From contig PHAT01000001.1 in assembly GCA_002840435.1 (NCBI GenBank), positions 242,300 through 306,299 on the forward strand: a DNA stretch of 64,000 nucleotides. The letters run 5' to 3'. The translations under genes and the position numbers were made by a program. The notes beneath the pieces are model-generated. The model searched no databases. It was not told where the DNA came from and saw only the letters and a program-made list of their open reading frames with translations. Origin of the DNA: Deltaproteobacteria bacterium HGW-Deltaproteobacteria-6. GTDB taxonomy: Bacteria; Desulfobacterota; Syntrophia; Syntrophales; Smithellaceae. This document shows, in pieces, positions 36,366-58,327 of this stretch. How positions within the stretch are numbered: the stretch's first letter is position 1; every line of letters begins with the position of its first letter.

Positions 36366-37916
36366 CTAGCTCCAGCTTTTCTCTTTTACCGCGTTTTGTC
36401 CGGCAACACGTCCGAATACCAGACAATCGATTGTGGCGCAGCTGCCGAGGCGCACTGCACCATGTACACCACCCGTGAGTTCTCCCGCCGCGTACAGTCC
36501 GGGGATAGGCTGATCCGTCATCACGTCCAGCGCCTGCGCTTGCGCATTAATATTGACGCCGCCCATGCAGTGATGAACTTTTGGCATCAGCCGCATGGCG
36601 TAGAAAGGCGCCGTCCCAATAGGTTTGGCGTCTTTCCAGAGATAGCGTCCCCAGGCTTCATCTTTGCCTTTGACCAGCGCTTCATTGTATTTATTGATTT
36701 CTTCCATCATGGGGCCGAAGGGAACGTTATAGGCCGCCGCCATTGCTTCCAGTGTATCGTACTTCTTGACGATGCCTCTTTCCATGAACTTGGGGATGGC
36801 GTCTTTCTGCAGCCGGGTGCCGTTTTCATCGCAAAAGGCAAGGCATTTATTGCCTGCCTTGAGAATGGCGTCGGCACGGACCTTGCGGTCAGCCAGTTCA
36901 TTAACGAAACGTCGGCCGGTTTTGGTATCGATCCACAGACCGTATATTGCCGCGCAGCCCTGGCCGAAGAAGGCCGCGAGCCCGAAACCTTTTTCATCCG
37001 GGCTGCCCCAGGGCCCGAGTTGAATCCAAGAAAGCTGCAACGGAGTGCAGCCGATGCGCAGGGATTCGCGAAGCGCTTCGGAGGTTGCACCCGGCTGATT
37101 GGTTGTATCCACGTCAGCCGTCAGGCGGGGGTCCTGAATCGTCCGGAAATTAACGTCGGCGCCGAAGCCGCCTGTCGCCATGATGACCGCTTTCTTGGCT
37201 TTAATGTTCTTGATCTTTCCACTGTCTTTTTTCGGGAAAACATATTTATCACGAATTTGAACGCCTTTGACCCGCCCATCCGCATCACGATAAATCTGAG
37301 TTAGATAACTTTGTAATCTCGGCACCACGCCCAGACCTTTTAACTTGGCCAGTTGCGCCGTTACGATTGCCGATCCGCTCTGATTGTATGTACTGTACAT
37401 CCGCGGAACGGAGTGTCCCCCTTCCTGACTGACCCGGTCCTTGTATTTGACGCCCAGATCGTCAATGGTCCACATCACTGTTTCCACCGATCGGTCAGCT
37501 ACCATTTTGGCCAATTCGACATGGTTTAAGTTCAGCCCGGCTGTCAGCATGTCCTTGAGCAGGAGTTCCGGTGAATCTTTGATTCCCTGCTTAGCCTGCA
37601 GGGGCGAGCCTGCCGCCGCGACTACACCGCCATTAACAATCGAATTGCCGCCGGCCGTGCGCATTTTTTCTAAAACAACCACGGACGCCCCGGCTTTTTT
37701 TGCTTCTAAAGCTGCGGCCAGTGCGGCAAAACCACTGCCGACGATGACCACGTCATAGGTCTCGTCCCATTTCTTCGGGATGGCCGCCGCTTCGGCGGTC
37801 CAGGGCATCATGGTCATTCCGCCCGTGGCCAGTCCCGCGGCTGCGGCCGTGGCGCCTGCTGTTTTTAAAAAATTCCTTCTGGTTAATGCTTTTGAATCCT
37901 TTTCTTTTTCTGCCAT
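36366..37916 (-). CDS. Tat-exported FAD-dependent fumarate reductase-like flavoprotein
   Basis: 516 residues. A Tat signal (LTRRNFLKTAGATAAAAGLA) is followed by the FAD Rossmann motif (VVIVGSGFAALAAALEAKKAG, VVLEKMRTAGGNS). The catalytic half matches the soluble fumarate reductase/urocanate reductase group: GRRFVNELADRKVRADA with the proton-donor arginine position, VHHCMGGVNI near 440, and the FAD-binding GLYAAGELTGGVHGAVRLGS. It lacks an attached heme or FMN domain. It probably reduces an enoate outside the cytoplasm as an electron sink. A small protein is encoded just upstream, and a sigma-54 activator lies beyond it in the opposite direction. Confidence 0.88.
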   Translation of the reverse strand: MAEKEKDSKALTRRNFLKTAGATAAAAGLATGGMTMMPWTAEAAAIPKKWDETYDVVIVGSGFAALAAALEAKKAGASVVVLEKMRTAGGNSIVNGGVVAAAGSPLQAKQGIKDSPELLLKDMLTAGLNLNHVELAKMVADRSVETVMWTIDDLGVKYKDRVSQEGGHSVPRMYSTYNQSGSAIVTAQLAKLKGLGVVPRLQSYLTQIYRDADGRVKGVQIRDKYVFPKKDSGKIKNIKAKKAVIMATGGFGADVNFRTIQDPRLTADVDTTNQPGATSEALRESLRIGCTPLQLSWIQLGPWGSPDEKGFGLAAFFGQGCAAIYGLWIDTKTGRRFVNELADRKVRADAILKAGNKCLAFCDENGTRLQKDAIPKFMERGIVKKYDTLEAMAAAYNVPFGPMMEEINKYNEALVKGKDEAWGRYLWKDAKPIGTAPFYAMRLMPKVHHCMGGVNINAQAQALDVMTDQPIPGLYAAGELTGGVHGAVRLGSCATIDCLVFGRVAGQNAVKEKSWS

Positions 37917-38457: not shown

Positions 38458-39987
38458 ATGATGATTGATGAAAATGAATTTTTCCGGGATGTCTCTGTTC
38501 GAATTTGCGGGAGCCTGGAAATTGATAAAGCATTGCTTAAGTGCTTCGAATATGTAAGCCGCGTTTTGCCTGTAGATGAATTAATCATCACGATATATGA
38601 CCCGGAAATAAAATGCATTAAGAATGTCGCGACAGTTGATTCGCAGGGCGCACATCTCACCTCGGAAGAAATCCCGCTCGCGCCTTTGCTGCCTCATGAG
38701 ATTCAGGATACCGAACGGTTTCCGCGGATCAGGAAATTGGATAATGCCTTCAGTGATCCCATTATCCGCCGTTTAGCGGAAAGCCGGGGATGGCCGCCTT
38801 CTTCAGTGCTGGTCAATCGCCTGATGATAGAAGGGAAATATGTGGGATCTTTTCTTGCTGTTGTCCAGGGTGAGAGAAAATACAGCGATGAAGATTTAAG
38901 GGTATGGGCCCTGGTGAACGAGCCGGCAGCGATTGCACTTGCCAATCACTTACAGTATCGAGAAGTGATCAGAGTCAAGGACCTTCTCGCGGATGACAAA
39001 CGTTATCTCCAGAATGAATTAAAGAGGGGAATCGGGGGGACACTGGTCGGGGCTGATTTCGGCCTGAGGGAGGTCATGGAGAAAGTGCACCGGGTCGCTC
39101 CTCTATTGAGTCCTGTGCTTCTTGTGGGAGAAACCGGCACAGGGAAGGAAGTTATCGCAAATGCCATTCATGAACTTTCGCATCGCAGTAACGGACCACT
39201 GATCAAAGTCAACTGCGGGGCCATTCCGGAGACGCTCATCGACAGCGAACTATTCGGACACGAAAAAGGAGCCTTTACGGGGGCGATTGCCCAAAAGCGC
39301 GGCCGTTTTGAGCGTGCTGACGGCGGTACGATATTTCTGGATGAGATTTCTGAACTTCCACAGCAGGTGCAGGTCCGCCTCCTGCGCGTGCTGCAGGAAA
39401 AGGAAATCGAGCGTGTCGGCGGCCAGGAAACCATTAAGGTCAATGTGCGGGTCATATCGGCCACGCACACGGATCTGCAAAGCCTGGTAAACTCGGGGCA
39501 GTTCCGGGAAGATCTCTATTTCCGTTTGAACATATTTCCGATAACCGTACCGCCGCTGCGTGAAAGAAAAAACGATATACCGCTCCTGGTTCATCATTTT
39601 ATTCAAAAGAAAGCACAGGAGATGGCACTGTCCGACATTCCGGATCTCTCGCCGGGCGAAATAGATCGATTGATGCAATATGAATGGCCCGGCAATGTGC
39701 GTGAACTTGAAAATGCGGTGGAAAGAGCGATCATTTTATCCAAGAATAATTATCTGACGTTCGGCAATATTATCAACTGCAAAGCTCCGCTAAACAGACC
39801 GATCATGGAGGATATCCGGGAAACCGAGAGGCTCGATGTAATGGAAGCCCGCTACATTGAAGCCGTTCTGGATAGGGCAGGAGGCCGGGTCAATGGAGAA
39901 GGAGGCGCCGCTGAATTGCTCGGCATTAATCCAAGCACACTTCGGCACCGGATGAGAAAACTGGGGATCCCGTTCGGCCGGAAGTGA
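38458..39987 (+). CDS. Sigma-54-dependent activator with GAF sensor
   Basis: 509 residues. An N-terminal GAF-type sensor (about 10-170) is followed by the AAA+ domain (about 200-430) with GETGTGKEVIA (Walker A), GAFTGA for sigma-54 contact, GGTIFLDEISELP (Walker B) and WPGNVRELENAVER. A Fis-type helix-turn-helix ends the chain (GAAELLGINPSTLRHRMRKLG). It resembles FhlA/NorR-type activators without a receiver domain, so a small molecule bound by GAF probably controls it. Three dyads lie just upstream, between it and the small-protein and flavoprotein genes, its likely targets. I did not find a clear -24/-12 promoter there. Confidence 0.93.
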   Translation: MMIDENEFFRDVSVRICGSLEIDKALLKCFEYVSRVLPVDELIITIYDPEIKCIKNVATVDSQGAHLTSEEIPLAPLLPHEIQDTERFPRIRKLDNAFSDPIIRRLAESRGWPPSSVLVNRLMIEGKYVGSFLAVVQGERKYSDEDLRVWALVNEPAAIALANHLQYREVIRVKDLLADDKRYLQNELKRGIGGTLVGADFGLREVMEKVHRVAPLLSPVLLVGETGTGKEVIANAIHELSHRSNGPLIKVNCGAIPETLIDSELFGHEKGAFTGAIAQKRGRFERADGGTIFLDEISELPQQVQVRLLRVLQEKEIERVGGQETIKVNVRVISATHTDLQSLVNSGQFREDLYFRLNIFPITVPPLRERKNDIPLLVHHFIQKKAQEMALSDIPDLSPGEIDRLMQYEWPGNVRELENAVERAIILSKNNYLTFGNIINCKAPLNRPIMEDIRETERLDVMEARYIEAVLDRAGGRVNGEGGAAELLGINPSTLRHRMRKLGIPFGRK

Positions 39988-40166: not shown

Positions 40167-40469
40167 CTAGAGTGCGTGGCAAACCGTGCATTCCAATTTG
40201 GTCTTTTCGCCCTGGTGGACTTTGTGAATTTGCGTCGAAAACTTTGTTGCTTCAGTTCTGGAGGCATCAGGAGCATGGCAGGATAAGCAGGGAGCTCCTT
40301 TACCGGCATCCGGATGCTTTTTGGGCATGATGGTGCCGTAGTCCTTGTGACATGTAGCGCATGCATTGTCCTTCAATGGCGGTCCCCCGGCTTTAACAAT
40401 TGTGACGTACATGGTGCATATCAATAAAAGCCCACAAGTATAAATAGCTAATTTTTTCCAAACATCCAT
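40167..40469 (-). CDS. Small triheme c-type cytochrome
   Basis: 100 residues with an N-terminal hydrophobic signal or anchor (KLAIYTCGLLLICTMYVTIV). Three heme-binding CxxCH motifs follow (CATCH, CLSCH, CTVCH) with spare histidines (KKHPDAG, IHKVHQG) that could serve as distal ligands, as in cytochrome c3/c7-like domains. It would carry electrons in the periplasm. GGAG lies nine bases before the ATG. It is downstream of the beta-propeller gene and, with the decaheme and porin genes on the other side, completes a possible electron route. Confidence 0.85.
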   Translation of the reverse strand: MDVWKKLAIYTCGLLLICTMYVTIVKAGGPPLKDNACATCHKDYGTIMPKKHPDAGKGAPCLSCHAPDASRTEATKFSTQIHKVHQGEKTKLECTVCHAL

Positions 40470-40510
40470 AATATTTATTCTCCTTTGTTATTTTTCGGTT
40501 GTGAAGATAA

Positions 40511-40544
40511 AAGGGCTAAAGGAGACCGTACAACCTTTACCCTT
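40511..40544. terminator. Hairpin between propeller and triheme genes
   Basis: AAGGGCTAAAGG (40511-40522) pairs with CCTTTACCCTT (40534-40544) with one bulge. It lies 20 bases past the propeller stop and may attenuate readthrough into the cytochrome gene. Confidence 0.5.
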
Positions 40545-40563
40545 CTTCGGTTTGTAATTGAGT

Positions 40564-41631
40564 TTATTCCGAGCCGATGATCGCGGCAGGACCCAGTGGT
40601 TCATCGGAGGCAATCGTCATGATAAGCCTGTTTGATTTTGGATCAATGATTTTGATCCCCCGTCCCGCATCAGCTACAAATATTTTATTTGTAGAGCCGA
40701 CGATACCGGCCCTCAGGTGACAGGCATAGTCATGGTAGCCGGTATCAATTTCCGCAAGCAGCGTATCGGTTAATGGATCGATGACACTCACTGTACTCAC
40801 ACCGTTTGCGGCATAAACTTTTCCTCCGTATACAGCGAATGACTGAACATAAATCTCTCTGCCGGAAAGAATGATATTTCTAACGATGCGGTCTGATCGG
40901 GTGTCCAGAACGCCCGCGTTCCGGATGCCCCCGAGGTATATTTTCCCTTCACCGACGTTTTTAATTGCGATGGGGCCGTATGGGCTGATAGTGCTGAATT
41001 CAATTGCTTTGATGGGGGCGCCTGTTTTAAGATCCAGAACCGAAATGATTCCCGGCCTAGCCAAGCCTCCGGGAAATGGAAGGTAAATTTTGTCATTGGC
41101 GATTTCCATGGTCAGAGGATTATTCAGAGGCATCTGGCCGGGGGGGGTAAAGGATATGGAGCGTACAATCTTCAGGCTATCGGGATCGATCTCCTGTATG
41201 GTATTGCCATAACGGTTCACCATATAAACCCGTCCTTTGTATTCAAGCAGCCCTGAAGGAGTCAAGTCCGTTTTAATCGTAGCCACTACGGCATCGGAAC
41301 GGGAATCGATTACTTTAAGCTCGTTTTGTCCCGCCTTTGAAATTTCAGCGCCGGGAACCGTCATGAAAATGCGATTGCCTACCGCGATGACGTCATTTGC
41401 ATTAGGCGGCAGTACTTGTGCCAGAGCTGACGGGGTATAGATATCAATGGATTTGATCAGTTGATGACTGGCCAGATTATAAACCAGCAATTTGGATCCA
41501 TCCTGGGTTGAAATATAGGCTTTTGCGCCTTGGGCATAACATGTCGAGGTAGCGGAAAGAATTCCGGCCATCAAAAAGAAGAGAATAAAAGTGATTTTAA
41601 TGAAACGGGTGTTGCAGTTGCACTTCTCCAT
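40564..41631 (-). CDS. Secreted YncE-like beta-propeller
   Basis: 355 residues from the ATG at 41629-41631, with GAGG five bases upstream. A signal peptide (FILFFLMAGILSATSTCYAQ) is followed by about seven WD-like repeats with the YVTN-type pattern: AYISTQDGSKLLVYNLAS, NELKVIDSRSDAVVATI, TIQEIDPDSLKIVRSI, GIISVLDLKTGAPIKAI, STVSVIDPLTDTLLAEI, RGIKIIDPKSNRLIMTI. Such propellers act as binding or scaffold proteins in the periplasm or outside the cell. It is divergent from the decaheme-porin pair and upstream of the triheme gene, so a scaffold role for electron transfer is possible but unproven. Confidence 0.85.
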   Translation of the reverse strand: MEKCNCNTRFIKITFILFFLMAGILSATSTCYAQGAKAYISTQDGSKLLVYNLASHQLIKSIDIYTPSALAQVLPPNANDVIAVGNRIFMTVPGAEISKAGQNELKVIDSRSDAVVATIKTDLTPSGLLEYKGRVYMVNRYGNTIQEIDPDSLKIVRSISFTPPGQMPLNNPLTMEIANDKIYLPFPGGLARPGIISVLDLKTGAPIKAIEFSTISPYGPIAIKNVGEGKIYLGGIRNAGVLDTRSDRIVRNIILSGREIYVQSFAVYGGKVYAANGVSTVSVIDPLTDTLLAEIDTGYHDYACHLRAGIVGSTNKIFVADAGRGIKIIDPKSNRLIMTIASDEPLGPAAIIGSE

Positions 41632-41751
41632 GATAACCTCCATTCGCTGGTGGAGCGCCAAAAATATCCGGCGCATTGGTTTGGGGAAAAGCTGAACATC
41701 AGATGAACGACCAACAACACATACTCTAAATGGATAAATATCCATGCATAA

Positions 41752-41779
41752 AAAATAGTTAGAATTAAATGTTTGTCAA
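41752..41779 (-). promoter_or_regulatory. Promoter of the propeller gene
   Basis: On the minus strand TTGACA (41779-41774) and TATTTT (41757-41752) have a 16-base spacer, 120 bases before the propeller start. A TTGACA with a TATTTT at the same spacing is also found for the divergent decaheme gene. Confidence 0.5.
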
Positions 41780-42236
41780 GAGCAATTTATTTCAGAAAAC
41801 ATTAATTTTGTAATTCAAGAAACGATAAACTTTTATATTCAACAGGAGATAGCGATTTTTACCCTTTGTTCTGAAGTCTGTATCCGTCAGCAAATATTTA
41901 AATATAATATTAATTATCATAATAACTATACTAGCTTAGTGGCATGGAATTACGATAAAGAAAAAGAATCATGCTATTTATTAAAAAATTGACGGAAAAC
42001 ACACTTGACAATTTCATGCGAGCTCCTATTTTTTTAATATTAAGTATATTTCTTTGTCTCCGCAGCGATTTAGTGTTGGTTTTAAGAGTTAAACATTGTC
42101 ACTGAACCGAATGTCGTCTGCGCCGCTGAGAGTTTACGTTGATTCATTGTTTCGGCTACTACAGTCAGGAATCTGCTCCGGATGCCGAAAACTGTTCACG
42201 AGACTATTACGAAGTGCAGAGTTTCAAGGGGGTGCG
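41780..42236. other. AT-rich divergent gap of the cytochrome cluster
   Basis: Some 450 bases of strongly AT-rich DNA between the divergent propeller and decaheme genes. It contains the two facing promoters and an AT palindrome-rich stretch at about 41900-41935. An in-frame extension of the decaheme gene back to 42096 has no ribosome site and no signal peptide. No RNA gene was seen. Confidence 0.55.
42005..42032 (+). promoter_or_regulatory. Promoter of the decaheme-porin operon
   Basis: TTGACA (42005-42010), a 16-base spacer and TATTTT (42027-42032), about 200 bases upstream of the decaheme start. The long leader suggests post-transcriptional control or a second promoter. Confidence 0.45.
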
Positions 42237-43154
42237 ATGCAAAGAATATTTCTGTGGTTTGTCTTTTGTTTCATCTTGGTTCTTACTTGCTGGATTGTCG
42301 TTCCTTCGCAAGGAACGAGCGCAGGAAAAGGTGGCAGGTCTGAGACCTGCAAAATGTGCCATCAGGGACACTACAGCACCTATATCAATTCTCCTCATGC
42401 AAAAATGGCCATCCGTAAAAGTCCGGCAAATGCCGAAGGATGCGAATCCTGTCATGGAGACGGTAAATCCCACATTCAGAAGGGCGGCGGCGGTGGTGTC
42501 GATATTTTCATTTTCAGAGATAAAAAAAATGACGGGGCGGCAAAATCAGCAAAATGTCTCGATTGCCATGCCGAGTCAAGAACCCTCACCCATTGGGACA
42601 TGGGCGCCCATAAGGCTGCCGGTATCTCCTGCGACAACTGCCATACGGTTCATTCGGGGAAAAAAATGAATCTGAAAACGCCTCAGCCGGAATTGTGTAT
42701 TTCCTGCCATCGGAGTATTCGCGGTCAGATTGCCAAGCAATCGCATCATCCCATTAAAGAAGGCAAAATAAAATGCACAGATTGTCATGATCATCACGGC
42801 GGTTTCGGGGAGAAATCCATCAAAGGCGGCTCCGGCAACGAACTATGCTACAAATGTCATGCTGAAAAGCGCGGTCCTTTCATGTGGGAGCATCCTCCTG
42901 TTGAAGAAAACTGCAAAACCTGCCACACCGTGCATGGGAGTAATCATGGGAAACTCCTGAACAACCGCGTACCTCAACTTTGTCAGAGTTGCCATGATGC
43001 AACGCAGCATCCGGGAAATATCTATACAAACTTCTTTAATTTTGGGGGCGCGTCGCAGTCCAACAGGATGTTTGCCCGTTCTTGCCTGAATTGTCATTCG
43101 GAAGTCCACGGTAGTACCGGTCCTTCGACGCGCGGTAAAACCCTGGTCAGATAG
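42237..43154 (+). CDS. Decaheme c-type cytochrome (DmsE/MtrA-like)
   Basis: 305 residues from the ATG at 42237, with AAGGGGG six bases upstream. A signal peptide (LWFVFCFILVLTCWIVV) is followed by ten CxxCH motifs: CKMCH, CESCH, CLDCH, CDNCH, CISCH, CTDCH, CYKCH, CKTCH, CQSCH and CLNCH. Length, heme count and order match the DmsE/MtrA family of periplasmic decahemes that insert into an MtrB-type porin. The porin gene starts ten bases downstream in the same operon, which makes the assignment firm. The complex would move electrons across the outer membrane; direction and outside partner are unknown. Confidence 0.95.
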   Translation: MQRIFLWFVFCFILVLTCWIVVPSQGTSAGKGGRSETCKMCHQGHYSTYINSPHAKMAIRKSPANAEGCESCHGDGKSHIQKGGGGGVDIFIFRDKKNDGAAKSAKCLDCHAESRTLTHWDMGAHKAAGISCDNCHTVHSGKKMNLKTPQPELCISCHRSIRGQIAKQSHHPIKEGKIKCTDCHDHHGGFGEKSIKGGSGNELCYKCHAEKRGPFMWEHPPVEENCKTCHTVHGSNHGKLLNNRVPQLCQSCHDATQHPGNIYTNFFNFGGASQSNRMFARSCLNCHSEVHGSTGPSTRGKTLVR

Positions 43155-43164
43155 GAGGTGATCC

Positions 43165-45234
43165 ATGAAAGGAATCAAATCAATCATAACGATTATGGTG
43201 ATCCTGGGAGCCTGGGGGACCGCCTTCTGTGAAGAGGGGAAATTATCCGGGGACATAACGGTGACGGGAGTCGTTCGGGAAGGAAAAGACAACAGTGCCA
43301 AGTTCAACGAATACCGTGACATCCGGGACGGCGTCTATGGAAGCATCAACTTGAAGTACGACATGCCAAAACAATATATCTTATTCGAATCTAATGATAT
43401 TGGTTACAATACCCAGAGTTATATGCTCGAGGGCGGCAGGTGGGATATGTTTCGCTTGAATATTAACTATGAAGAGATTCCCCATAACTTTACCTACGAT
43501 GCCAGAAGTCTCTATTCAGGTGTGGGTACAAATTCCCTGACTTACGCCGGGGCAACACCAGTGACCAATCCGGCCACCTGGAACACGTTTGACTATACGG
43601 TCAGACGGAAAAATATGGGTGCCGGTCTCAAATTTGATTACCTCAATCCTTTTTATATCGATGTCAATGTGGATCAACAGAGGAAATCCGGTGTATATCC
43701 GCTGGGCGTAGCCGGGACCTCCCCTGGCGGAATCGCCATCGAGCTGCCCGTAAACATTAATTATACGACTGACAATATTAAGGTGGAAACGGGTTATTCA
43801 AGCAAGCCTCTGTTCTTATCCGTAAATTATTTATACAGTCGCTTTGAAAGTGGTGACGGACTTCAGTATTTCCGTAATCCCGCCACCGCAAATACGGCAT
43901 CAGCAACGGATACGCTGTTTCTCCCGCCGGAGAATAACTACAGTAAGTTCGGTTTTCAGGGAGGGGTAGCGCTCCCGTTCAACAGCAAGTTCAGCATAGA
44001 TCTCTCCTCGGCACGTGCCCGTTCCTCCGCGAAGCTGGCCAACAGCTATGTTGCGAATGTTGCCGGCGGGCTGACCGGGATCACCTTGAGCAGTCAATAT
44101 TTCAACGGCAACGTCTACACGGACCAGTTGAATCTTGCTTTGACGTTCAATCCGAAACCTTTCTTAAATGCCAAAATATTTTACAAGTATTATAGTAAAG
44201 ACAACAAATCCGACGTCATTACCACTACCGATGGTGCGACGGTGCTCAACAACCATCTCTTTGATTACCGTAAGAACATCTATGGTATTGAAGCCGGCTT
44301 GAAATTGCCCGCCCAGTTTCGGGTTAATGCCGCCTACCGTTTCACCAAGACGGAACGTGCCCGTGAGGATTTACCGAAAAATCGGGACAACCTTATCGAT
44401 CTGGGGTTGAAATGGAGCGGCCTGAAATTCATGAATGCAAAGGTGGGCTACGAATTTCTAGATCGCGCGGCGGAGTTTGACATTCCGATGACCCCGGTTG
44501 TGTCTCTGGAACCGTGGGTTCGGAGGTTTGATGCCTCAGCCCAAAATAGAAACACATACAAAGCGTCTGTCGAATTCTATCCGCTCGATACATTAAGCAT
44601 GAATATCGGGTATAAATATAAGCATAGTAACTATAAAGATACAATTCTGGGCTTGAATGACATTAAGGCCCAGGAGGTTAATGCGGATATTGACTGGCAG
44701 ATTCACAAACGTGTGCGGCTCTTCGGCTATTTTGATTTCGAGCAACGCACGCTGAACCAATTCCAGAGGCAAACAACCGTTAACAATAGTCCTGATACCG
44801 CGCCTACGGCTACATCATTTAACTGGACCTCTGAGGCGCAGGAAAATACATACGGGTATGGCGTCGGAACCGACATTTCCATCATCATGGATAAATTAAC
44901 TCTGAATCTGTCCCACAATTCCGTCAAATCCGATGGAACTGTTGATTACACCTATCTGGGAGCGGTGGCTTTACCTGCCGGACGGACGCAGGATACTATT
45001 GACCTCAATGCCTGGGACAATTATCATCTCGACAATTTTATTGTTAAGACAACCTATCAGATTACGAAAATGGTGGCCGTGACGGGAGCCTATGCCTTTG
45101 AATCATTCTCATACGGTGATTCCCAGTACAATAACTATCTTTATGTGGCAGGCACTACGCGTATGACGGGGGCATATGCAGAGCAATCCTATCGGACCCA
45201 TGTTGTGTTTCTTAGTGTCAACGTGAAATTCTAA
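43165..45234 (+). CDS. MtrB/PioB-family outer-membrane porin
   Basis: 689 residues with a signal peptide (IITIMVILGAWGTAFC) and long alternating strands, about 26 to 28 by eye, ending in SVNVKF with the terminal Phe of barrels. Segments such as DIRDGVYGSINLKYDM and RFTKTERAREDLPKNRDNLIDLGLKW fit the MtrB/PioB family. The N-terminal CxxC found in some MtrB proteins is not seen. Its place ten bases after the decaheme gene, with AGGAGGTGA before the ATG, marks a two-gene conduit. I saw no outer-surface multiheme cytochrome (MtrC/OmcA-like) nearby. Confidence 0.9.
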   Translation: MKGIKSIITIMVILGAWGTAFCEEGKLSGDITVTGVVREGKDNSAKFNEYRDIRDGVYGSINLKYDMPKQYILFESNDIGYNTQSYMLEGGRWDMFRLNINYEEIPHNFTYDARSLYSGVGTNSLTYAGATPVTNPATWNTFDYTVRRKNMGAGLKFDYLNPFYIDVNVDQQRKSGVYPLGVAGTSPGGIAIELPVNINYTTDNIKVETGYSSKPLFLSVNYLYSRFESGDGLQYFRNPATANTASATDTLFLPPENNYSKFGFQGGVALPFNSKFSIDLSSARARSSAKLANSYVANVAGGLTGITLSSQYFNGNVYTDQLNLALTFNPKPFLNAKIFYKYYSKDNKSDVITTTDGATVLNNHLFDYRKNIYGIEAGLKLPAQFRVNAAYRFTKTERAREDLPKNRDNLIDLGLKWSGLKFMNAKVGYEFLDRAAEFDIPMTPVVSLEPWVRRFDASAQNRNTYKASVEFYPLDTLSMNIGYKYKHSNYKDTILGLNDIKAQEVNADIDWQIHKRVRLFGYFDFEQRTLNQFQRQTTVNNSPDTAPTATSFNWTSEAQENTYGYGVGTDISIIMDKLTLNLSHNSVKSDGTVDYTYLGAVALPAGRTQDTIDLNAWDNYHLDNFIVKTTYQITKMVAVTGAYAFESFSYGDSQYNNYLYVAGTTRMTGAYAEQSYRTHVVFLSVNVKF

Positions 45235-55627: not shown

Positions 55628-58327
55628 TCACGCAGCTTCGAGCTTCACAGCGCAGACTTTATACTCGGGGATTTTGCCTGTCGGGTCAAGTGACGGATTG
55701 GTCAGCAGATTGACAGGTGCATTTGCGAAATGGAAGTTCATGAAAATTGATCCGGGCGCGCTTTTTGTCGTGATGCGGGCTTTGGCTTGAACATCTCCGC
55801 GTCTTGACGTTACTTTGACCATTTGGCCATCGGAAAGGCCCAGCTTTTCAGCATCCACAGGATTAATCTCAACCAGGCTTTCGGGACAGCGCTCTGAGGG
55901 ACCCTGTGAGCGCGACGTCATCGTGCCTGTGTGGTAATGATAAAGGACGCGCCCTGTTGAAAGCAGGAACGGATAATCTTTATCCGGCAGTTCGTTGGGT
56001 GGTATGAATTCAATGGCGGTAAACAGACCAAGTCCCCGTGAGAATTTATCCTTGTGCAAGAATTTTGTGCCCTTGTGGTCAGGAGTGGGGCATGGCCATT
56101 GCAGACCTTCCTTCTCAAGGCGTTGATAAGAGATGCCTGCATAACTGGGCGTAACGGTCGTTACTTCATTAAAAATTTCCTGGGCGGATGCATAGTGCAT
56201 CGGATAACCCATTTTGTTGGAGATGCCGCAAATGACTTCCCAATCCGTTTTAGTCTCACCGGGCGCTTCAATCGCTTTGCGCACGCGCTGGACGCGGCGC
56301 TCGGTATTGGTGAAGGTACCATCTTTTTCAGCAAAACTTGTTACCGGCAGTACGACATCGGCGATTTGCGCCGTTTCAGTCATAAAGATGTCTTGAACAA
56401 TCATTAAATCAAGTTTTCCAAGTTCTTTTTTGACATGATGAAGATCCGGATCGGAAAGCAGCGGATTTTCTCCCATGATGTAAAGCGCCTTGATCTTGCC
56501 CGAGCCCGCCGCCGCCATAATTTCCATCAGTGTCAGTCCCAGTTTCCCGGAAAGATTTGCACCCCAGGTCGCTTCAAATTTTTTGCGGCTATCTTCATTG
56601 GCGACCTGCTGGTAGGCCGGAAAAACATTGGGTAGAGCGCCCATATCGCATGCGCCCTGAACATTATTCTGTCCGCGCAGCGGATTGACGCCGCCGCCTT
56701 CAATACCGACATTGCCGCAAAGCATGGACAGGTTGGCGGTGCTCTTTACATTATCCGTGCCGCTGATGTGCTGGGTAATGCCCATTGCATAAATGATACT
56801 GGCGCGGTTGGCATTGGCATACATCCGGGCGGCCTTCTTTAAATCTTCCGCAGGTACGCCGGAAATCTTTTCAACATAGTCCGGCGTATATTTTGCCACA
56901 AGCGTTTTCAGGGCATCGAATCCTTCCGTCCGCTTATCTACATATTCTTTGGCATAGAGATCTTCTGCGATAATCACGTTCATCAGTCCGTTGAATACTG
57001 CCACATCCGTTCCCGGATTTTGCCGGAGCCAGATGTCGGCGTATTTGACTAAATCAATTTCCCTCGGGTCGATGACGATCAGCTTGGTACCGTGCCGCTT
57101 GATAGCCCTTTTGATTTTCATGCCGATAATGGGGTGGTTTTCGGTGGTATTGGTCCCCGTGGCCAGAATTAAATCGGTGTATTCCAGTTCATCAATCGAA
57201 TTGGTCATTGCTCCACTGCCGAATGTGGCGGCCAGACCGGCCACCGTTACGGAGTGTCAGAGACGGGCGCAGTGATCGACATTGTTGGTGCCGACAACCG
57301 CGCGCATGAATTTCTGGAAAAGGTAATTTTCTTCGTTGGTGCATCGTGCGGAAGAGAGGCCGGCGATGCTGTCCGGGCCTTTCGCTTTTATGATTGTTGC
57401 CAATTTATCAGCGATAAATGTAAAAGCCTCATCCCACGTAGCTTCCTTGAAGTCTCCGCCTTTCTTAGCACGGATAAGGGGTTTTTTCAGACGGTCGGGA
57501 TGGGACACGAAATCCATGCCGAAGCGCCCCTTAACACAAAGGCTGCCATCATTGGGCTGTCCATGTTCGCGATTGCCCGAGACTTTAACGATTTTATTGT
57601 CTTTGGTATAAAGATCCATCTGACAGCCAACGCCGCAGTATGTGCAGGTGGTGCGAACTTTATTCAATTCCCAGGGACGGCCGGCGAATTTCGCCTGCTT
57701 GAACGTGATGGCGCCGGTCGGGCAGACCTGAAGGCACTCACCGCAGAAGACACAGGCGGAATCGATATAGTCCGCGTCAAAGGCCGGGCCGACTTTTGCG
57801 TAGGAACCGCGATTGGCGAAATCAAGGACTTCATTGACCTGTATTTCATTGCAAGCGCGAATACAACGGCCGCAAAGGACGCACTTGTTCAGATCGCGAT
57901 GAATCATGGTATTGCTGTTGTCCGGTGCAAAACCGGGAGGTTCGATATTAAAACGGGGTTTATCAATTTGCAGCCAGTAAACAAGATTTTGTAATTCGCA
58001 TTGTCCGTTTTGTTCACAGGTCAGACAATTATGATCACCGGATGACCATAATAATTCAACGATCATCTTCTGGGCGGCACGAACCGACGGCGTGTTGGTG
58101 CGAACAACCATACCCGGCGTGATCGGCATACAGCAGGAGGCGACAAGGCTTCGAGCATTTTCCACTTCCACAACGCAAACACGGCAGGCACCGACATTGG
58201 TAGTGTTTTGATAATGGCAGAGGGTCGGTATAAAAATACCTGCTTCTCTGGCGCAGTCCAGAATAGTTTGACCGGGAGTTGCCGAAACTTCTTGTCCATC
58301 AATGGTTACTGCAATTTTATTTTCCAT
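55628..58327 (-). CDS. fdhA: Formate dehydrogenase, selenocysteine-containing, NuoG-like N-terminus
   Basis: 899 residues from the ATG at 58325-58327 (GGAG six bases upstream), read through an in-frame TGA at 57257-57259 (residue 357). The context is CARL, TGA, then HSVTVAGLA, which is where formate dehydrogenases carry the active-site Sec or Cys before histidine. The N-terminus is NuoG-like: a [2Fe-2S] domain (CAREAGIFIPTLC, CRVC), the His-Cys3 motif (HNCLTCEQNGQCE) and two [4Fe-4S] motifs (CVLCGRCIRAC, CVFCGECLQVCP). Then come the cofactor domain's own cluster (CTYCGVGC, SLCVKG) and the MGD-binding domains to the C-terminus. This is the catalytic subunit of NAD- or ferredoxin-linked FDHs. 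No FdhB/NuoF-like partner is adjacent; electrons may pass to a subunit encoded elsewhere. Confidence 0.95.
57227..57245 (-). promoter_or_regulatory. SECIS-like hairpin of the FDH gene
   Basis: On the minus strand GGTGGCC (57245-57239) pairs with GGCCGCC (57233-57227) with one U-G pair, around the loop GGTCT. Eighteen bases lie between the TGA and the loop. This matches the E. coli fdhF element in loop and distance. Confidence 0.75.

Follow-up and report, generated by a model that had tools for sequence, protein, structure and literature searches.

Can a syntrophic bacterium of the Smithella type pass electrons across its outer membrane, and could it do so without a multiheme cytochrome at the cell surface? 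The question is raised by four neighbouring genes in a window of 64,000 nucleotides, the whole stretch of DNA analysed here, from Deltaproteobacteria bacterium HGW-Deltaproteobacteria-6, a member of the Smithellaceae (assembly GCA_002840435.1, contig PHAT01000001.1, positions 242,300 to 306,299). They encode a small triheme cytochrome, a beta-propeller, a decaheme cytochrome and an MtrB/PioB-family barrel (Table 1), and an earlier note, made from the sequence alone, had joined all four into one probable extracellular electron conduit. Judged by sequence comparison and predicted structure, the locus probably specifies an MtrAB-type porin-cytochrome conduit across the outer membrane, one that would work without the surface cytochrome MtrC (probability roughly 0.72). 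The source genome comprises 4.09 Mb in 53 contigs (99.06% complete, 4.16% contamination).

The core of this putative conduit is the decaheme and barrel pair, whose sequences, together with the predicted fold of the barrel, match MtrA and MtrB of Shewanella (PDB entry 6R2Q); because of this match an outer-membrane conduit is well supported. The decaheme scores 249 bits with the DmsE-family model TIGR03508 (cut-off 192) and aligns with the MtrA chain 6r2q_A at an E-value of 4.1e-55. All ten CxxCH motifs and eleven further histidines are invariant among 16 aligned decaheme sequences, a number that would suffice for the bis-histidine ligation predicted for each of the hemes. The barrel gene begins 10 base pairs (bp) past the decaheme stop, so that the order described earlier, a decaheme with ten CxxCH motifs and an MtrB/PioB barrel ten bases on, is borne out by motif count and coordinates. 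The barrel scores 235 bits with PF11854 (MtrB_PioB; cut-off 23), is the sole MtrB-family match in the source genome, and finds the MtrB chain 6r2q_B by sequence (phmmer E 3.9e-11). The same chain is the best Foldseek match of the predicted barrel model (TM 0.73), the other rows among the 50 listed lying at 0.41 or below. The model holds 26 strands of at least eight residues, and MtrB has been published with 26 strands (PMC7198977).

All four genes are intact at the positions first given for them, apart from the starts of the propeller and the decaheme. The listed open reading frame of the propeller spans 40564-41745 on the minus strand, and the ATG at 41631 is preceded by a good ribosome site (GGAGG). 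For the decaheme, the listed TTG start at 42096 lies too early, and the ATG at 42237 stands behind AAGGGGG; Table 1 uses both revised starts. The porin gene, whose inactivity had been named as an argument against a conduit, shows no visible inactivation, since the four genes are open and intact relatives exist.

Table 1. Features at and beside the MtrAB locus (positions within the window; +, forward strand; -, reverse strand)
Feature	Position	Strand	Remarks
Tat-signal flavocytochrome c, flavin adenine dinucleotide (FAD) subunit	36366-37916	-	beside triheme
Sigma-54 activator	38458-39987	+	beside triheme
Small triheme c-type cytochrome	40167-40469	-	100 aa, three CxxCH; PF14537 over cut-off
Beta-propeller, YVTN/DUF5074 kind	40564-41631	-	355 aa, signal sequence, no heme motif; PF16819 and YVTN repeat model over cut-offs
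Divergent intergenic region, propeller/decaheme	41632-42236		605 bp; bounds from ribosome-site-based starts
Decaheme c-type cytochrome, MtrA/DmsE family	42237-43154	+	305 aa, ten CxxCH; TIGR03508 over cut-off
MtrB/PioB-family outer-membrane barrel	43165-45234	+	689 aa; PF11854 over cut-off

The distribution of the propeller strengthens the view that it is a specific companion of MtrAB. Across 119 related genomes the propeller is found at E 1e-10 in four, the source genome included, and MtrB at E 0.001 in 14; all four propeller genomes fall among the 14, so that no genome of this set has the propeller without MtrAB. Kinship ignored, the chance of such an overlap is 1.3e-4, or 1.1e-3 without the source genome. 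The propeller gene adjoins MtrAB in three of the four: divergently in the source genome and in G004, and on the same strand in G043, where it lies 10 to 13 bp upstream of MtrA (there are two possible ATGs). In the fourth genome, G007, propeller and MtrA stand at the ends of two contigs (C28 and C55), and both ends show a terminus resembling an inverted repeat together with the hexamer CTTGAC. This is what an insertion element would leave, and such an element apparently lies between the two genes. In the MtrB tree (51 rows, built from the window, L071-L084 and those of L022-L061 in which the profile matched, with L021 and L062-L070 left out), the MtrB proteins of the source genome and of G043 belong to two different, well supported clades, and the propellers of these two genomes are 57% identical, which suggests that the pairing was either transferred or formed twice.

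In a phylum-wide sample of 395 genomes the propeller was found at E 1e-20 in the source genome only, G004, G007 and G043 not being shown in that sample, and among 50 named decaheme loci it occurs only in L025, whose MtrB is identical to that of G004. By decaheme sequence, the closest named relatives, both at 89% identity, are L021 (a Smithellaceae metagenome-assembled genome, MAG) and L025 (a MAG titled Deltaproteobacteria).

What might a propeller do at such a place? The protein has a signal sequence and is devoid of heme motifs, and its predicted model (folded with two sequences; predicted local distance difference test, pLDDT, 75) resembles the YVTN-type propeller 1l0q_A with a Z of 31.0; the fold may also be read as YncE-like or S-layer-like. 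No lipobox was seen in the signal regions of the four propeller homologues, read by eye. Further fold neighbours, at Z about 28 to 29, are nitrous oxide reductase (NosZ) and thiocyanate dehydrogenase (TcDH), copper enzymes whose clusters use more than three histidines. The propeller holds just three histidines in 355 residues, two of them invariant among the four homologues; the copper-enzyme reading seems less likely for that reason and was set aside. Most likely, the propeller is a non-heme protein dedicated to MtrAB that serves in docking or binding and would hold a periplasmic carrier or cap the outer end of the conduit. More specifically, though doubtfully, it may stand in the place of MtrC, as a secreted non-heme head that caps the outer end of MtrAB and serves as the docking site for a partner cell, a shuttle or a ligand. 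If so, the outer contact of a propeller-capped conduit would be made by a binding protein rather than by a cytochrome.

That no outer-surface multiheme cytochrome is seen, a statement first made for the window, extends to cytochromes of the MtrC/OmcA type in the whole source genome: in a census with the family models TIGR03507, PF09699, PF14537, PF14522 and PF03264, the best OmcA/MtrC match (TIGR03507, searched up to E 10) reaches 16.2 bits against a cut-off of 209, and the window decaheme is the sole match to PF09699. Because the census used family models, an unusual cytochrome could be missed. Of two weak cytochrome-family matches, one lies at C4:182 kb and the other at C10:91.7 kb, where no CxxCH protein was found. 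Multiheme proteins do occur elsewhere: C5:666-676 kb encodes a hexaheme, a dodecaheme, a protein with 11 CxxCH motifs and an octaheme that is over the cut-off of the tetrathionate reductase family, and C5:863-865 kb holds an NrfA-like gene (under its cut-off) together with an NrfH-like gene. The sole candidate for an outer cytochrome, and a weak one, is a five-heme protein at C6:104 kb that looks exported and has a CarboxypepD_reg domain. Next to MtrAB, MtrC is usually missing in this lineage: among the first 22 named loci (L021-L042, with stretches of varying length and some short contigs) there are 20 in which the decaheme is the only gene with at least four CxxCH motifs, the exceptions being L028 with a second decaheme and L029 with a tetraheme.

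These results bear on the possibility that the locus is a genuine wire that hands electrons directly to another species, a methanogen, or to a solid, and is completed by a surface cytochrome encoded elsewhere. The five-heme protein could be that cytochrome, and because GspD is present over its cut-off, type II secretion, the export route of MtrC in Shewanella (PMC7198977), is possible in the source genome. In G043, moreover, the gene after MtrB encodes a nine-heme protein with a lipobox-like signal, and in methanogenic reactors about half of the Desulfobacterota and Spirochaetota species that degrade fatty acids are reported to express multiheme cytochromes (PMC7382037). However, the five-heme protein is unlinked to the locus and its ExtKL match is weak (36 bits, cut-off 250), the OmcA/MtrC search gave the low score noted above, and in the same study syntrophic Desulfobacterota, Smithellaceae included, mostly expressed formate generation (PMC7382037). 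A wire completed in this manner thus seems unlikely, and the MtrC-less conduit remains our preferred reading.

Candidates for the inner-membrane quinol oxidase that such a conduit would draw on, and for which the earlier note had pointed to the rest of the genome, were found in two places. One is a cluster on C5, made up of NrfD (PF03916), an iron-sulphur (FeS) protein resembling TtrB, NrfC and DsrO, the hexaheme and the dodecaheme, and adjoining ResB and CcsB; the other is the NrfH-like gene, the one match to the NapC/NirT family in the source genome. The relatives bring this type of module closer to the conduit. In four of the 14 MtrB genomes (G028, G030, G048 and G037), the gene after MtrB encodes a heme protein whose N-terminus is hydrophobic, and NrfD (PF03916) lies beyond it; a FeS gene stands between the two in G030, and heme protein and FeS domain share one frame in G028. 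This arrangement ties the MtrAB lineage to the quinone pool, and the FeS protein of the source genome is 32% identical to that of G030.

A number of observations weigh against an MtrAB conduit with the propeller as its companion. The barrel falls under the cut-off of a second family model (TIGR03509, MtrB/PioB; 211.6 bits, cut-off 240), and its structure model is of medium confidence (pLDDT 75; predicted TM-score, pTM, 0.67), the alignments behind the structure models having been built solely from window and related-locus sequences. In addition, the barrel is devoid of the N-terminal CxxC of Shewanella MtrB, a protein in which C42 is required for ferric iron reduction (PMC12175506), although within the first 80 residues a CxxC is found in 0 of 22 aligned sequences, its own included. 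MtrB is patchy, being carried by two of the 19 other genomes of the same genus. As three of the four propeller genomes belong to one genus, the evidence for the pairing comes from about two independent lineages, and the propeller was not found in 10 of the 14 MtrB genomes. Finally, the quinol module of the source genome lies outside the MtrAB locus, and its NrfD is just 20% identical to the NrfD beside MtrAB in G030.

How the conduit would be assembled in the membrane, along which route, in which direction and to which acceptor it would carry electrons, and on which side of the membrane the propeller would sit, we infer from these genes and models. The MtrB-like barrel would sheathe the decaheme, which would wire the periplasm to the cell surface. 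Electrons of menaquinol would probably enter by the NrfD/FeS/multiheme module or by NrfH, both encoded elsewhere, small periplasmic cytochromes such as the triheme would carry them to the decaheme, and they would exit at its exposed outer heme, either to an acceptor that is soluble or can diffuse, or to the cytochrome of a partner. Soluble acceptors would fit an MtrC-less conduit better and are our first guess; a solid or a methanogen might also take part in the exchange.

Outflow is favoured over uptake because the neighbourhood holds a group A6 [FeFe] hydrogenase (over cut-off; L101, just past the window edge) and a formate dehydrogenase alpha subunit (over cut-off; 55631-57244, 10 kb from the locus), both signs of an electron-disposing metabolism. 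With these neighbours, an inward conduit, one that takes electrons from Fe(II), a partner or a cathode into the periplasm in the manner of PioAB, appears rather unlikely, even though PioAB resembles this locus in having no extracellular cytochrome (PMC6831781).

Alternatively, the pair might feed a molybdoenzyme at the surface, as in DmsEF. The decaheme is over the DmsE-family cut-off, and in G048 a gene for a molybdopterin oxidoreductase (L077:1683-3950) lies downstream of an MtrAB-NrfD-ResB-CcsA run. That enzyme, however, shows no evident signal sequence, and the model it matches best, formate dehydrogenase alpha, stays far under its cut-off (245 of 666 bits). DmsA and DmsB were not found among the window genes scanned (34.6 to 49.6 kb; the rest of the genome was not searched for DmsA), and the formate dehydrogenase alpha subunit of the window is 10 kb distant. 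We regard a surface molybdoenzyme as very improbable, and an MtrC-less conduit stays the favoured reading.

The triheme gene is linked to MtrAB far less regularly than the propeller gene. In 15 sequences its three CxxCH motifs are invariant, as are three other histidines, and it has matches at E 1e-6 in 19 of the 119 genomes, some of them to a domain within larger proteins. Fourteen loci around the better matches were compared; 13 hold a triheme gene, which lies beside a propeller in G007 only, and the two genes are also neighbours in G004 and in the source genome. As a widespread small cytochrome that mostly lies far from any MtrAB, the triheme is probably a general periplasmic carrier. In the four-part conduit proposed at the outset, the place of the propeller is strengthened by its restriction to genomes with MtrAB among those searched, and that of the triheme is weakened.

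The genes on the far side of the triheme raise a further alternative, namely that triheme and propeller serve an adjacent flavocytochrome c reductase and not the conduit, as the flavocytochrome c FAD subunit and the sigma-54 activator adjoin the triheme. In G004 and G007, however, the triheme-propeller pair is adjoined at that place by a PLD-like gene, and no flavocytochrome is found among the neighbours shown; for this reason we set the two genes aside from the unit, and they probably form a separate module. In G043 the propeller stands directly before MtrA and the triheme elsewhere, one triheme copy sharing a stretch (L128) with a flavoprotein of 25% identity. A flavocytochrome partner is thus improbable, and we retain the propeller as a companion of MtrAB. 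Two more flavocytochrome c proteins are encoded within the C5 multiheme cluster.

The promoters had been described as facing each other. The gene pairs are in fact divergent, and the region holds 11 promoter-like sites against 11.4 expected from shuffles. A shared promoter design in the divergent region, suggested by two TTGACA/TATTTT pairs, was dropped because the count equals that of shuffles and the pattern is not conserved in G004.

Other proteins accompany MtrAB in relatives. WG-repeat proteins, another non-heme companion in the same slot, are encoded directly 3' of MtrB in L022 (same contig as L080), L023 and L083, and two of these carry a lipobox-like signal. Near MtrAB, a DUF2231-like membrane protein that ends in a monoheme cytochrome c domain is encoded in L073, L079 and L083 (by scans, the L083 match to DUF2231 being just under the cut-off) and in L022/L080 (by BLAST in L022). 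In Nitrospirota loci, an FGE-sulfatase-type gene directly precedes MtrA (L030 and L036, scanned; L028, L029 and L038, by eye).

We also note that the 11-CxxCH cytochrome at C5:666275-667516 (L097:8276-9517), outside the window and with weak NCBIfam matches, has a TGA codon in frame behind the first heme motif (GEG-U-AG) and is probably a selenoprotein. It is found at E 1e-30 in 52 of the 119 genomes, and 53 of the 57 matches listed have exactly one TGA; the other four comprise three C-terminal fragments and G067, which has tryptophan there. The TGA stands in the same context in 22 of 23 loci read. A short hairpin follows it, whose five-pair stem is complete in seven sequences out of 18 and interrupted by a single mismatch in 11, and folding is not above that of shuffles. 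Multiheme selenoproteins, ExtKL among others, are known (PMC13188914).

MtrAB has been described as a modular core with varying partners (PMC8805035), and mtrAB clusters have been described in Desulfobacterota (PMC12133095). A propeller as partner of MtrAB was not found in the literature searched, and we therefore count this pairing as new; when beta-propeller, MtrB, decaheme and MtrA were searched together, the propeller concerned was FoxY, and a search joining Smithella, extracellular electron transfer, multiheme and porin returned no paper. MtrAB-type conduits without a surface cytochrome are already known from PioAB, and the propeller is the new part. As a specific component that accompanies MtrAB in two separate lineages, it may reveal how a conduit can do without a cytochrome at the surface. 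An intact, quinone-linkable conduit makes it directly testable whether Smithella-type syntrophs exchange electrons beyond H2 and formate, and, being present in a minority of these genomes, it provides a marker gene set.

Among known systems, the propellers of nitrous oxide reductase and thiocyanate dehydrogenase are alike in fold only, the low histidine count noted above being a difference. The YVTN and BtuG-type propellers (1l0q; Bacteroides surface lipoproteins) also share the fold (Z about 26 for the BtuG type), and the propeller described here differs from the BtuG type in having no lipobox and in its place beside an electron conduit. DmsE/DmsF is similar in that the decaheme belongs to the TIGR03508 DmsE family, and dissimilar in that DmsA and DmsB were not found among the neighbours scanned here. 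PioAB of Rhodopseudomonas palustris TIE-1 resembles the locus in gene content, a decaheme and a porin without an extracellular cytochrome (PMC6831781). Shewanella MtrCAB shares the gene pair of a decaheme and a 26-strand barrel, both chains being matched by sequence and the barrel by fold, whereas in the source genome MtrC was not found, MtrB is without the N-terminal CxxC, and a propeller gene is paired with the two.

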